Assembly (NCBI RefSeq): GCF_017876295.1
Contig: NZ_JAGINT010000002.1
Coordinates: 186,001 to 250,000, forward strand
Length of the DNA: 64,000 bases
Direction of reading: 5' to 3'
From: Kribbella aluminosa
Lineage (GTDB): Bacteria; Actinomycetota; Actinomycetes; Propionibacteriales; Kribbellaceae
Each line of letters opens with the position of its first letter. Position 1 is the stretch's first letter. The translations under genes and the position numbers were made by a program. Of the stretch, positions 56,860 to 62,868 are shown piece after piece. The notes beneath the pieces were generated by a model. The model ran no database searches and was not told where the DNA came from. It saw only the letters and a program-made list of their open reading frames with translations.

Positions 56860-56889
56860 CACCGTCTCCTCCCACCGATTTGATCAGAT

Positions 56890-56925
56890 TGAAGCGCTTC
56901 AGGATGAATAGAGTGAAGCGCTTCA
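56890..56925. promoter_or_regulatory. Two LacI-type operators
   Basis: TGAAGCGCTTCA occurs twice as a perfect palindrome, at 56890-56901 and 56914-56925, 24 bp centre to centre. The central CG is typical of LacI/GalR sites. They lie between the divergent amidohydrolase and LacI genes. Confidence 0.88.
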
Positions 56926-56987
56926 AAGGCGCCCCTGTCAAGTTTCTGTCCAGCGTGGATCGGGGTCCATGCTCTAAGGTCGTGGAC

Positions 56988-57995
56988 ATGTCCGGAACGA
57001 GCCGGAGGCCAACCCTCAAGGACATCGCCGCCGAGACCGGGCTCTCGATGGCCGCGGTGTCGTACGCGCTGCGCGGTCTGCACGGCACGCCCGAGACCCG
57101 GCAGCGGGTCCAGGAGGCCGCCGAACGGCTCGGCTACCAGGCCGATCCGGTCGCCCGCGCGCTCGCCTCGGGCCGCAGCGGCTCGATCGGCGTGCTCTGT
57201 GCCTCGCTCGAGGACCTCTGGCAGCAACGCGTCGCCGCCGCCCTCGGTCGGGAGCTGCTCGCCCCGGACCGGAACGCCTGGATCATCGACTCGGCCGGCG
57301 ACGCCGACCGGCAGCTCGAGCTCGCCCAGCACCTGGTCGACCACCGCGCCGACGCGATCGTCGTGGTGCCGATCGACCCGGCCGCGAAGGCCTGGGCGGA
57401 GATCGCCCGCCAGGTGCCGGTGATCGCGATCGGCGACGCGCTGCCCGGCGCGAAGGCGAAGTCCGAGGTGATCCTCGACAACGAGACCGGCGTCAGTACG
57501 GCGCTGCGCCGGCTCGCGGACGCCGGCCACCGCGACATCGCCGTACTGAGCCCGACCCGGCGCCTCGAGGTGGAGCGCCCCGCCGAGGAGATCGCGCAGC
57601 GGGTGGCTCACGACCTCGGCCTGAGGATCCGGCTGCTGCAGTGCCCGCACGACCTGCCCGGCGCGACCGAGGTCGCCCGCACGCTGCTCACCGGCGCCGA
57701 CCGGCCGACCGGCATCCTCGCGCTCGCGGACTCGATGGCCTTCGGGGTGTACGCCGCCGGCCGGGAGCTCGGGCTGCGCATCCCGGACGACCTGTCGCTG
57801 CTCGGGTACGACGACCAGCCGATGTCGCAACTGCTGACACCGCCGCTGTCGACGTTCCACTGGCCACTCGACGACCTGGTCAGCCACGTCGTCGCGCGCG
57901 TCACCTCCGCCGTCGACACGAACCGCCGCGTCCGCCGCACCACGCTGACGCCGACCCTGATCGAACGCGGCTCGGTCGCCGGCCCGCCTCGGTAG
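56988..57995 (+). CDS. LacI-family transcriptional regulator
   Basis: 335 residues. The LacI HTH (PTLKDIAAETGLSMAAVSYA) with hinge helix (YQADPVARALASGRSG) is followed by a periplasmic-binding-type effector domain (IGVLCASLEDLWQQRVAAAL; PTGILALADSMAFGVYAAGR; LSLLGYDDQPMSQLLTPPLS). ATG 56988 is chosen because an upstream reading would translate through the operators. It should regulate the divergent amidohydrolase/dioxygenase operon; the inducer is unknown. Confidence 0.93.
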   Translation: MSGTSRRPTLKDIAAETGLSMAAVSYALRGLHGTPETRQRVQEAAERLGYQADPVARALASGRSGSIGVLCASLEDLWQQRVAAALGRELLAPDRNAWIIDSAGDADRQLELAQHLVDHRADAIVVVPIDPAAKAWAEIARQVPVIAIGDALPGAKAKSEVILDNETGVSTALRRLADAGHRDIAVLSPTRRLEVERPAEEIAQRVAHDLGLRIRLLQCPHDLPGATEVARTLLTGADRPTGILALADSMAFGVYAAGRELGLRIPDDLSLLGYDDQPMSQLLTPPLSTFHWPLDDLVSHVVARVTSAVDTNRRVRRTTLTPTLIERGSVAGPPR

Positions 57996-58086
57996 GCGAG
58001 CCGGGCGTCGTTGCGCGTCAGGCTCCACGCCCTCGAAACTAGACTAGGTCACTACACTTACATCCCATTGTCCAGGATCCGGACGG

Positions 58087-58168
58087 CAGCCAGGACCTCG
58101 ATGGCGGCCAGGACCTCGGTGGCGGCCAGGACCTCGGAGGCGGCCAGGTCCTCGGTGGCGGCCAGACG
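58087..58168 (+). repeat. 18-bp imperfect tandem repeats
   Basis: Four and a half units of CrGCCAGGwCCTCGrwGG (18 bp) at 58087-58168, diverged from each other. They run directly into the 13-bp array. An AT-richer spot with TACACT at 58053-58058 just upstream could be a -10 box. Confidence 0.85.
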
Positions 58169-58701
58169 CGGCGTACGAGATCGGCGTACGAGATCGGCGT
58201 ACGAGATCGGCGTACGAGATCGGCGTACGAGATCGGCGTACGAGATCGGCGTACGAGATCGGCGTACGAGATCGGCGTACGAGATCGGCGTACGAGATCG
58301 GCGTACGAGATCGGCGTACGAGATCGGCGTACGAGATCGGCGTACGAGATCGGCGTACGAGATCGGCGTACGAGATCGGCGTACGAGATCGGCGTACGAG
58401 ATCGGCGTACGAGATCGGCGTACGAGATCGGCGTACGAGATCGGCGTACGAGATCGGCGTACGAGATCGGCGTACGAGATCGGCGTACGAGATCGGCGTA
58501 CGAGATCGGCGTACGAGATCGGCGTACGAGATCGGCGTACGAGATCGGCGTACGAGATCGGCGTACGAGATCGGCGTACGAGATCGGCGTACGAGATCGG
58601 CGTACGAGATCGGCGTACGAGATCGGCGTACGAGATCGGCGTACGAGATCGGCGTACGAGATCGGCGTACGAGATCGGCGTACGAGATCGGCGTACGAGA
58701 T
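58169..58701 (+). repeat. 41 perfect tandem copies of a 13-bp unit
   Basis: The unit CGGCGTACGAGAT repeats without visible change from 58169 to 58701, 533 bp, exactly 41 copies. Each unit contains the palindrome CGTACG. None of the six frames has a stop codon, so open frames across it are not evidence for protein. There are no spacers, so it is not CRISPR. Such uniformity implies recent expansion or strong homogenisation. Confidence 0.95.
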
Positions 58702-58867
58702 CGTACTTCGTGAGCAGTCGTTGTAACCGGTCAGGGGTTCAGCCCCGACGGCAGGCGGACGATCGGCTCGGCACCCCTGCGGGCGGGCAGCGCGAACGCC
58801 GACTCCGCCGCGACCTGCAGGCGCGCGAACCGGCGGCCGAGGCCGGTCGACGCCCGGCTGAAGGGCG

Positions 58868-59012
58868 ACCCGACCTCGCCGAGCAGTACCCCGAGTACGC
58901 CGCCCGCAACGACCGCGGCAAGTCCGGCTACAACGAGCCGACCCAGTCGATGCGGGTCCCGATCAAGGCCGGCATCCGCCTGCACTCCGCCCTCGCCGAC
59001 TGGTCGGCCTAG
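58868..59012 (+). pseudogene. Stranded 3' coding fragment
   Basis: The frame ending at TAG 59010-59012 has a normal codon pattern and reads EQYPEYAARNDRGKSGYNEP then TQSMRVPIKAGIRLHSALAD. There is no start codon or ribosome site before it other than in the tandem array. It looks like the C-terminus of a gene whose front was lost. I cannot name the family. Confidence 0.45.
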
Positions 59013-59017
59013 GCGGA

Positions 59018-59755
59018 CTCGGCGGACTAGGCGGACTCGGCAGGCTCGGCAGACTGGGCGGACTGGGCCCAACGCGTCCCACCCGCCAAGCCGTCCCCGA
59101 CCACCTGACCGGCCTGCTTGCCCACTGAGCTGGAGCGTTGCCCCCTCATATTTTCAGTGGGCAACCCTCCACCTCGACAGGCAACCCCAGGCGCCTACCC
59201 TCCGCGCCGCGGGACGGGGAGGATTTCTGCCCAAATCGGCACACGATCTTCCCCAGGTCCCCCGCTCGAACACCGAGGCGCGCACGGCCGGTCGAACCCG
59301 ACCAGGCGGGGCTCGACGAGCAGCCGAGGGAGCTGTGGGCCGGGTGGCCGTACGCCGCTAGCGCATCCGGTGAGCGCGCGGTAGTCGGGGCGCGCACGGG
59401 CCGGCACGAGCCGGATGGACACGAGCCGGGCGGCGCGCGGGACGCGGCGCGGGGCAGGTCGGCGCGGGGCAGGTCGGCGCGGGGCAGGTCGGCGCAGGTG
59501 TGGTGGGCGCGGGCGCGGGCGAGTGTGGGGTCGGTGCGGGTCGGCGTGGCGCCGGGGCGGGTCGGGGCCGCGAGCACGGGTCGGCGCGGCGCGGTGGCGG
59601 GGCGGAGGGGGCCGGGGCCGAGGGACCGCGCGGAGGGACCCGCGCGGAGGGACCCGCGCGGAGAGACCGCGCGGAGGACCGGGCGGAGGACCGGGCGGAG
59701 GACCGGGCGGAGGGGCCGGGGGGCGGGTGGGTGGCGGGGGCGGGGTGGAATGCCG
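59018..59755. other. Gene-free, G-rich low-complexity tract
   Basis: Short tandem repeats: GGCGGACTcGGC-like units near 59020-59070, three copies of GGCGCGGGGCAGGTC at 59446-59490, and 12-14-bp GCGGAGGAC/GCGGAGGGACC units at about 59630-59715. The plus strand is G-rich with many GGGG runs and could form G-quadruplexes. No gene is supported on either strand. Confidence 0.7.
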
Positions 59756-59789
59756 GAAGGCCGGTCGAGTGGGTGCTCGGCCGGCCTTC
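59756..59789 (-). terminator. Terminator of the M36 protease gene
   Basis: GAAGGCCGG (59756-59764) pairs with CCGGCCTTC (59781-59789), with an inner CGAG/CTCG stem. It begins 14 bases after the protease stop on the minus strand. Confidence 0.75.
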
Positions 59790-59802
59790 GCGGGGGGAGG
59801 TG

Positions 59803-62724
59803 TTACTTGGTGCCGAAGACCTGGAGTTCGGTCATGTCGGTGAACTTGCAGCCGCCGAACGCGCCGTTCGGGCAGTTGTTCTGGAAGTCCGGGACCTGCG
59901 GGCTGAGCATCCAGAACCGGACGTACTGGACGCCGGTCGCGTTGCCGGTCGGGGCGACCAGGTTGTACTTGCCCCGGTTGGTGGCGTCGAAGGTGCCCTG
60001 TGCCGCGGTGGCCCAGGTGGTGCCGTCGACCGAGGTCTCGATCTTGTACTGACCGGTGGACGAGCTGCCCGGGTCGCCACAGGTGTTCGACGGGTCGACG
60101 TTGAAGTTGCTGATGTTGACCTTCGCCGGCAGCTTGACGTCGACGTGCTTGGCGATCATCTGGTTGGTCGCCGTGCCCTTGTCGTCACCCGTCGTGCTGC
60201 CCCAGCCAGTGCCCTGAGCGTTGTCGATGGCGGACGCCGGCCCACACTGCGGGCTGAAGTCCGGCCCGTTGAACCCGGCGACCGTGCCGCCGCCGGACGA
60301 GGCCGCCCAGTTACGCCGCGGGACGAAGTTCGACTTCGCGCCCGGCGTGACCTTCACCGGCTGAACGATCAGCTCGTACCCGGGGGCCGAGACGACGACC
60401 TTCGGGTAGGTGCCGGGGGCAACGCCCGCGACGGCGTAGTTGCCCTGGGCATCGGTCGTACCGGCGTAGTCGCCGGCGTAACCGGAGGAGTGACCGCCGA
60501 CGTAGACCAGCGCGCCGGCGATCGGGGCGCCGGTGTCCTTGTCGGTCACCTTGCCGCTGAGCGTGGTGGTGGCGCCTGTCGGCGGCTTGTGGAAGTCCTG
60601 CGCCGGGTAGGCGTCGCCGCCGTCGACGACACCGGCGTACCAGCCCATGCCGCGGTTGGCGAACACGGTCCAGATGGTGTCGGCGTTCTTGCCGCCGCTG
60701 GCGACCAGGTCGGCCTGGACGATCGCGTTCCGCATGTCGAGCATCGTCGGGTCGGCCGGCGACAGCTCCATCGCGCGGGTGATGATGCTCATCGCGTACG
60801 GACGGCCGAAGCGCTCGCGCAGGTCCCAGAGGGTCTGCGCCCAGACCTCACCGGAGGCGTGCACCTCGGGCGCGCCGCCGATGGTCGGGAAGTCGGCGTA
60901 CGTGTAACCGCCCTTCGAGCCATCCGCCTTGATGCAGTTCGGGCTGACCGCGTGTACCCGGCAGTCGATGGCCTCGGTCCGGAACAGGTCGCCGTGCGCG
61001 ACGTACCGGCCCTCGAGTACCTCGCCCGGCTTCGTGGTGTCCTTCTCCAGGCCGTGCGAGACCAGGTAGTCCATCGCGTAGAAGTCGCTCCACGCCTCAC
61101 CCATCGAGCCGGCCTGGATGCTGTTCAGCGTCGAGTTGCCGGTGGCGTCGACGACCAGGCGGTTCGACAGACCGTGGGTGTACTCGTGGTACAGGATGCT
61201 GGCGTCGTTCGCACCGCTGGACGGTACCCACGGGTCCTGGGCGTCGGTCGCACCCGGGGCGTGCCACAGGTACATCTGCATGGTCGGCGGAGTGCCGTCC
61301 GGCGGGGTCGACATGTTCGCGTTGTCGAGGTGGTTCGCGTCGGGGCCGCCGTTGGCTCCGGTCGCCGCGCCGTCCAGGGCGTTCAGCAGCACCGGGTCGC
61401 CGCCCGCGGCGTCGAACGAGCCGGCCGCCGGGGTGAAGCTGATCGGCGGCTTCGCCAGCCAGTCGTGGTAGTTGCTGGCCAGGTAGAACGCGTTGGTGAC
61501 GTCCTGGTTCATGTTCGTCTTCCAGGAGTCCGGCTTCGCCGGGTCCCAGGTGCAGATGAACGCGGCCGAGCAGAACGACGACGCCTTCGGGAAGCTGGTC
61601 AGCTTGTACTCGGCGCCGGTCTTGGTGCCGGGCACCTTGACGATACCTTCCGGATGCGGCTGGTTGTCGTCGTAGATGTCCGCCCAGGCCGACACCGAGG
61701 TGCCCTCGAGCAGGGTCTTGGCGGTCTTCGGGAGCCACTTGTTGTAGATCAGGTTCTCGACCCGCTGGGTGCCGCCCTTGGCCGCACCCGGGTAGTAGTC
61801 CTGGACCAGCGCGTCGCCGTTGGCCTCGCTGACCAGGTCCTTGCGGTACAGCAGTCCGCCGGTCTGGGCGTCGATGACGTGGCTGTAGATCTTGGTGCCG
61901 CCGGCGTTGACGTAGGTCAGCCAGCCCTTGCGCAGCCCGTCGGCGGTGTGGAACCACACCTGCTTCGCGGTGTCGCCGTTGCTGAACTTCGTGCTGTCAC
62001 CGGCGGTGCTCGCGGTCGCGGACTTCGCCGTACCGCCGACGTCCTCGATGGCGGCGCTGCGGGCCGCCGTGGCGGACAGGTTCGGTGCGGCCGCGGCGGA
62101 CCGGGACTGGGCCGCGGCGGTCAGGCCGGAGACCGGCGAGCCCATCAGCGAGATCAGCTCGCCGTGCTTGGTGACGTTGGCCTTCAGGCCGTTGCCGAAC
62201 ACCTCGACGCCGTCGACCACCTGCGACCAGAAGATGTGGTGGGTGCCGAGGTCGTCGACGTAGTCCTTGCGCAGCTTCAGCGTGCCGAGGTCGGCGTCGG
62301 AGAGCTTGAAGACCTCCGGGTGCGCCTTCACGTAGCCGAGCGCGACGTCGGCGGCCTTCTTGCCGCTCTTGCCGGTCAGGAAGCCGTTCAGCTTGGAGAC
62401 CTGCGCCGGGGTCCCGGTGTTCGGGTCGACCTCGACGACGCCCTGGGCACCGAGCGACTCACGGAACTTCTTCGACGCCGCGGTCTCCTTGCCACCGACC
62501 TTGGCGGCCCGGGCGTAGGTGGTCTTGGCGTTCGGCGTCCGGGCGTCGTAGTTGCCCTTCCGCTCCTTGCCGGCGTTCTGCTTCTCGGCCTGGGCCGGCT
62601 TCTTGCCTTCGGCACCGGAATTCTGCACGGCGTTCGCACCGCCGGCCGTCATGGCCAGCAAAGTGGCGGCCGCTGAGACGGCGGAGACTGCGAGGAGCCC
62701 CCGCCCTCTGCGTGATGTGGTCAC
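59803..62724 (-). CDS. Secreted M36 (fungalysin-type) metalloprotease
   Basis: 973 residues. A signal peptide (RRGRGLLAVSAVSAAATLLA) leads to an FTP-type propeptide (to about residue 270) and the M36 catalytic domain with zinc motif HEYTHG (first His about 513) and downstream Glu in GEAWSDFYAMD. A carboxypeptidase-regulatory-like domain (TLSGKVTDKDTGAPIAGALV, about 760-840) and a discoidin/F5-8C-like C-terminal domain (FNVDPSNTC, YVRFWMLSPQ) follow. GTG 62724 with GGAG seven bases upstream is preferred over a longer reading. Presumably digests extracellular protein. Confidence 0.93.
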   Translation of the reverse strand: MTTSRRGRGLLAVSAVSAAATLLAMTAGGANAVQNSGAEGKKPAQAEKQNAGKERKGNYDARTPNAKTTYARAAKVGGKETAASKKFRESLGAQGVVEVDPNTGTPAQVSKLNGFLTGKSGKKAADVALGYVKAHPEVFKLSDADLGTLKLRKDYVDDLGTHHIFWSQVVDGVEVFGNGLKANVTKHGELISLMGSPVSGLTAAAQSRSAAAAPNLSATAARSAAIEDVGGTAKSATASTAGDSTKFSNGDTAKQVWFHTADGLRKGWLTYVNAGGTKIYSHVIDAQTGGLLYRKDLVSEANGDALVQDYYPGAAKGGTQRVENLIYNKWLPKTAKTLLEGTSVSAWADIYDDNQPHPEGIVKVPGTKTGAEYKLTSFPKASSFCSAAFICTWDPAKPDSWKTNMNQDVTNAFYLASNYHDWLAKPPISFTPAAGSFDAAGGDPVLLNALDGAATGANGGPDANHLDNANMSTPPDGTPPTMQMYLWHAPGATDAQDPWVPSSGANDASILYHEYTHGLSNRLVVDATGNSTLNSIQAGSMGEAWSDFYAMDYLVSHGLEKDTTKPGEVLEGRYVAHGDLFRTEAIDCRVHAVSPNCIKADGSKGGYTYADFPTIGGAPEVHASGEVWAQTLWDLRERFGRPYAMSIITRAMELSPADPTMLDMRNAIVQADLVASGGKNADTIWTVFANRGMGWYAGVVDGGDAYPAQDFHKPPTGATTTLSGKVTDKDTGAPIAGALVYVGGHSSGYAGDYAGTTDAQGNYAVAGVAPGTYPKVVVSAPGYELIVQPVKVTPGAKSNFVPRRNWAASSGGGTVAGFNGPDFSPQCGPASAIDNAQGTGWGSTTGDDKGTATNQMIAKHVDVKLPAKVNISNFNVDPSNTCGDPGSSSTGQYKIETSVDGTTWATAAQGTFDATNRGKYNLVAPTGNATGVQYVRFWMLSPQVPDFQNNCPNGAFGGCKFTDMTELQVFGTK

Positions 62725-62868
62725 AGCAAATCTCCATGGAGTTCGTGTTAGCGGGTCGCCCTCCACGACCCGTCCCGGGGGCTGACCTTAAGCCTGCGGG
62801 GGCGTCCGGGGAAGAGAAATCACCGGATTGCCGCGGAGTCGAGGGTTGTCCTTCGTGCTTGGAACAGT

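Follow-up and report, generated by a model that had tools for sequence, protein, structure and literature searches.

The genome of Kribbella aluminosa carries a run of 41 identical 13-bp units that is very probably a lineage-specific, recent and neutral minisatellite, grown inside a pseudogene. Eye-catching as it is, the array is most likely of an ordinary kind, a young minisatellite seated in what is left of a decayed gene, and no function is needed to explain it. It lies in a stretch of 64,000 nucleotides (the window; contig NZ_JAGINT010000002.1, positions 186,001 to 250,000), and positions are given from the first letter of the window unless a locus is named.

A long, perfect array found in one genome

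A direct script found 41 full units of CGGCGTACGAGAT, all perfect, at 58169-58701. Period 13 persists to 58703, so that the maximal run is 41 units plus 2 bases, and Tandem Repeats Finder reported 58169-58703 with period 13, 41.2 copies, 100% matches, 0% indels and a score of 1070. For the assembled sequence, both methods bear out the 41 perfect copies described in a sequence-only reading of this DNA, which had also correctly placed the palindrome CGTACG inside every unit. At each unit-unit junction, GATC is formed.

To compare the array with the rest of the chromosome, we sampled 40 stretches of 20 kb from this genome, 800,000 bases or ~9% of it. No tandem row in this sample matched the score of 1070. 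The top row reached 1006, with a 342-bp period, 1.8 copies and 88%, and among arrays of period 6 or longer with 4 or more copies just one was 100% perfect, a 9-bp repeat of 6.7 copies. The array is far beyond chance and is unusual within the sampled part of the genome; the earlier statement that such arrays are rare in this chromosome agrees with these 800 kb, which held nothing comparable. With up to 3 mismatches allowed, the CGGCGTACGAGAT dimer had 40 matches in the whole genome, all of them within the array. The perfect 9-bp array sits at L092:18933-18992. Two stretches of the same genome, L092:17192-18992 and L105:12240-19292, are rich in tandem repeats whose listed rows have multiple-of-three periods, and they possibly encode repeat proteins.

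Of the 38 family genomes, only this one has the two-unit pattern with up to 2 mismatches; all 37 relatives lack it. A collection of bacterial and archaeal genomes turned up a single exact dimer, which belongs to Streptomyces geranii (L009:1537-1562) and lies just upstream of a presumably TetR-like open frame. That genome has no second dimer site at up to 2 mismatches, and the dimer might serve as an operator or have arisen through a chance tandem duplication. A viral origin of the array was considered and rejected, as the viral contig collection contained 0 exact dimers. In a literature search, none of the papers listed dealt with this array, and none was found on tandem repeats in Kribbella.

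The array lies among the remains of a lost gene cassette

The features of the locus are as follows.

56880..57995, plus strand: LacI-family regulator gene, left border (Pfam LacI and Peripla_BP_3; homologues in relatives)
58072..58165, no strand: imperfect 18-bp tandem array, 5.2 copies, 85% (Tandem Repeats Finder; alignment)
58169..58703, no strand: 13-bp array, 41 perfect units plus 2 bases (Tandem Repeats Finder and direct script)
58659..58850, minus strand: SDR-A remnant, C-terminal residues 191-255 of 277, 63% identity, one TGA (protein search of own genome)
58869..59024, plus strand: PadR regulator remnant, C-terminal residues 120-171 of 183, 63% identity, one TAG (protein search of own genome)
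58998..59068, no strand: imperfect 9/18/27-bp tandem array where the PadR remnant ends (Tandem Repeats Finder)
59431..59718, no strand: further imperfect GC-rich tandem arrays with periods of 15/30, 21 and 12 bp (Tandem Repeats Finder)
59803..62766, minus strand: M36 (fungalysin-type) peptidase gene, right border (Pfam Peptidase_M36)

The longest reading of the LacI gene starts at TTG 56880, which is a candidate start only. Its protein has matches in all 58 genomes searched, this genome included, and strong ones in all 36 same-genus relatives. The LacI and M36 genes converge, which puts the array between two facing gene ends. The interval between them is repeat-prone: several different tandem arrays cover 987 of the 1807 bases of 57996-59802, whereas such arrays account for 573 of the window's other 62193 bases and for 1.15% of the 800-kb sample. 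Four of the 36 relatives (G003, G011, G012 and G014) have arrays of at least 4 copies in the same region, made of other units, some only 62-80% alike. G003 has arrays of its own in the same interval (L066, about 784-1198), 138 bp x 1.9 and 34 bp x 5.8.

We then compared the ~6 kb that follow the LacI gene in each of the 36 same-genus relatives, 218,392 bases in total. Six of them (G007, G010, G016, G029, G031 and G033) have a cassette beside LacI that consists of SDR-A (minus strand, short-chain dehydrogenase), SDR-B (minus strand) and PadR (plus strand). These genes are full or near-full length, and both SDRs are without an internal stop; the PadR match of G033 has one stop, where the match extends beyond the end of its frame. 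The M36 gene follows the cassette in 5 of the 6, and none was matched in the stretch fetched from G031. In G022 the cassette is present as fragments only, eroded there too. Cassette matches were absent from the fetched stretches of the other 27 relatives, except for a far-off partial SDR-B in G005. G002 (L059) and G011 (L056) have SDR-B and PadR inverted between LacI and M36, with no SDR-A match.

The G010 proteins served as queries to search the K. aluminosa genome for remnants. For SDR-A, 58659-58850 is the match of highest identity (63%); longer SDR matches elsewhere score higher, at no more than 41% identity. The best match of PadR is 58869-59024, at 63% and with one TAG. In tblastn, over slightly different stretches, the SDR-A remnant reached 53% and the PadR remnant, over a slightly longer stretch, 57%. 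The two remnants keep the order and orientation of the intact cassette with a gap of 18 bases between the tails, and the missing middle (SDR-A start, SDR-B and PadR start), calculated from G010 coordinates, amounts to ~1.8-1.9 kb. The end of the SDR-A remnant overlaps the last units of the 13-bp array, and the right flank together with these units is 72-77% identical to the SDR-A region of the six relatives (best E 2e-26). The unit of the neighbouring 18-bp array is similar to the SDR-A C-terminal coding region in relatives. A pseudogene setting for the array is well supported.

The unit probably derives from SDR-A

Within the 218,392 bases from the 36 relatives, CGTACGAGAT had 4 matches, and 0 on the other strand. 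There is one each in G010, G016, G029 and G033, all at the matching place within SDR-A: base 260-264 of the slice in the relatives, where the first copy here is at 278. The shorter TACGAGAT adds one match elsewhere, in G001. In the other two open SDR-A genes, a MAFFT alignment places TACGAG where CGTACGAGAT would stand. The sequence-only reading had named a single-copy orthologous sequence in every close relative as something that would count against it; this holds in part, for four of the six gene-keeping relatives, which have CGTACGAGAT once, and not for relatives lacking the gene, which have no copy there.

For pairwise alignment, we collapsed both arrays to one unit each and aligned the result to four of the six cassette-bearing relatives. 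Against G033, G010 and G016, a 16-base gap falls exactly between CGG and CGTACGAGAT; against G029, the gap is split 3+13. Joining CGG to CGTACGAGAT across the 16-bp gap gives exactly the 13-bp unit. All four alignments also need an 11-base gap directly right of the unit, and MAFFT with the 18-bp array retained did not place the unit opposite the proposed SDR-A source. The summed score for a 32-base core was reached by 0 of 2000 shuffles (0 to 13 of 2000 for single relatives). In four of the six relatives, no stretch matches this core better than the proposed source; in G016 and G031, 4 of about 130 other stretches each do. Given the SDR-A setting, the lone CGTACGAGAT at the matching place and a 16-bp gap that yields the unit, the unit is probably debris of the decayed SDR-A gene, amplified in this lineage, and a 16-bp founding deletion in the SDR-A tail is likely.

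A proposed route to a recent array

Comparison with the relatives supports an ancestor that would have had the order LacI - SDR-A - SDR-B - PadR - M36, and a loss of ~1.8-1.9 kb from the cassette that would have left two gene tails side by side. Less firmly, and from the alignments, the 16-bp deletion in the SDR-A tail may then have fused CGG to CGTACGAGAT to create the founding unit. The intact SDR-A of G010 and G033 has an imperfect echo at about the spacing of the 13-bp unit, CGTCGTACGAG followed by CGTCGACGAG; a first duplication might have started from such an echo. Within the dead gene, replication slippage or unequal recombination would have carried the array to 41 copies, and between converging gene ends the added length should cost little. 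The amplification would have to be recent enough, or copy-correction strong enough, to leave zero base differences.

Not one base is changed across the 535 bp of the array. Divergence at M36 four-fold sites amounts to 22-29% between this genome and 16 of the 36 relatives, a set outside which G001, G003, G015 and G021 also have a long M36 match. An array as old as those splits would be expected to carry some 60-80 changes in 535 bp, by our own arithmetic from half the divergence. The contrast indicates that the array expanded, or was homogenised, recently, and the data fit both alike.

Artefact, binding and coding readings

An error of assembly or consensus, in which the copy number or the perfection of the array is wrong, is unlikely. 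A perfect 535-bp repeat is beyond counting by short reads, and consensus polishing can erase small differences. Misassembly, however, usually collapses repeats and does not lengthen them; the assembly consists of just 2 contigs (4.4 and 4.5 Mb), which suggests long reads; and both flanks match relatives.

We consider it quite unlikely that a regulator or nucleoid protein is titrated or tethered by binding to the 41 identical sites. The CGTACG palindrome, the GATC at each junction and the exact S. geranii dimer upstream of a presumably TetR-like frame would all suit a binding site. So would the enrichment of the 13-mer GGCGTACGAGATC, which at up to 1 mismatch has 235 matches in this genome, 41 in the array and 194 outside, compared with 6 for a reversed control. 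But all 13 exact copies outside the array fall within frames that run for 135 or more codons without a stop (these are not gene calls), and AYEI or ISYA is what the best-scoring frame encodes in 10 of them. Judged from these exact copies, favoured codons probably explain the enrichment better than a regulatory motif would, and the motif reading was set aside. CGTACG and GATC occur 422 and 3772 times in 400 kb elsewhere (about 9,400 CGTACG genome-wide by extrapolation), so that 41 extra sites change little. No promoter-like sites, promoters or terminators were found in 57900-59900.

Iteron or parS-type arrays are likewise made of repeated short sites. Unlike those, the array is not conserved in relatives (its dimer, with up to 2 mismatches allowed, is in 0 of 37), and beside it lie a LacI regulator gene, a peptidase gene and gene remnants, none of them a replication or partition gene. 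Among the options of the sequence-only reading were an array that titrates or anchors a protein and a structure for replication or recombination. Neither finds support: the dimer is missing from all 37 relatives and the unit apparently goes back to the coding sequence of a decayed SDR gene; for the former, the abundance of CGTACG counts as well.

That an array born by accident has since been adopted as a decoy or structural element is very unlikely. On this account, pairing of CGTACG and GATC would fold each strand, and copy-correction or selection would maintain perfection. The predicted fold of ten units does beat that of all 200 dinucleotide shuffles. Among controls that are themselves repeats, a fold as good or better came from 72 of 400 tenfold repeats of shuffled units and from 93 of 400 random 70% GC units. 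We therefore discarded the hairpin as a special property, the predicted foldback being unexceptional for a repeat. Rfam, searched for structured RNAs, had 0 matches at the gathering score in 57900-59900.

A protein with a 13-residue repeat, read from the open frame at 58011-59012 (333 aa), is scarcely credible: the frame is open throughout the array and ends in the PadR tail, but it runs antisense to the SDR-A remnant and has no Pfam match at E 0.001, and the two-unit DNA pattern is found in 0 of 37 relatives. All six frames of the array are stop-free, and the three frames of one strand give the same 13-residue peptide. Because 63% of random 70% GC 13-mers would be stop-free as well, the missing stops carry little weight. 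The sequence-only reading was right that 13 is not a codon multiple, but with six stop-free frames this does not in itself exclude coding.

Comparison with known repeats

Bacterial minisatellites, or VNTRs, have head-to-tail units of about 10-60 bp and are often intergenic and lineage-specific. The array resembles them in its head-to-tail tandem arrangement as seen by Tandem Repeats Finder, in unit size and in lineage specificity; an expansion from a short ancestral sequence is indicated too, with reservations on the unit alignment. It differs in that its 41 unchanged copies look extreme; the comparison covered one genome per species, and one strain of this one. The perfection of 41 copies, extreme for the sampled part of the genome, counts against a minisatellite. 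Of the fast-mutating minisatellite that the sequence-only reading had listed as an option, the minisatellite is supported; the mutation rate itself was not observed.

Read as a minisatellite, the array has a readable pedigree for a bacterial repeat: a source gene that is open in relatives, a likely founding deletion and then amplification. It offers a probable neutral marker and a means to study the origin and growth of long perfect repeats in GC-rich bacterial chromosomes, and gives no evidence for a new regulatory or replication system.

The tandem repeats of archaeal Borg elements are described as perfect, recently formed, independently arisen and very rarely common to genomes, with intergenic units that are mostly not multiples of three (PMC9879509). 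The array is like these repeats in being perfect, apparently recent and, within the family, confined to one genome, and in having a unit that is not a multiple of three. Borg repeats are pervasive and A-rich and belong to extrachromosomal elements (PMC9879509); here, in contrast, a single GC-rich array in a bacterial genome has a traceable pseudogene source.
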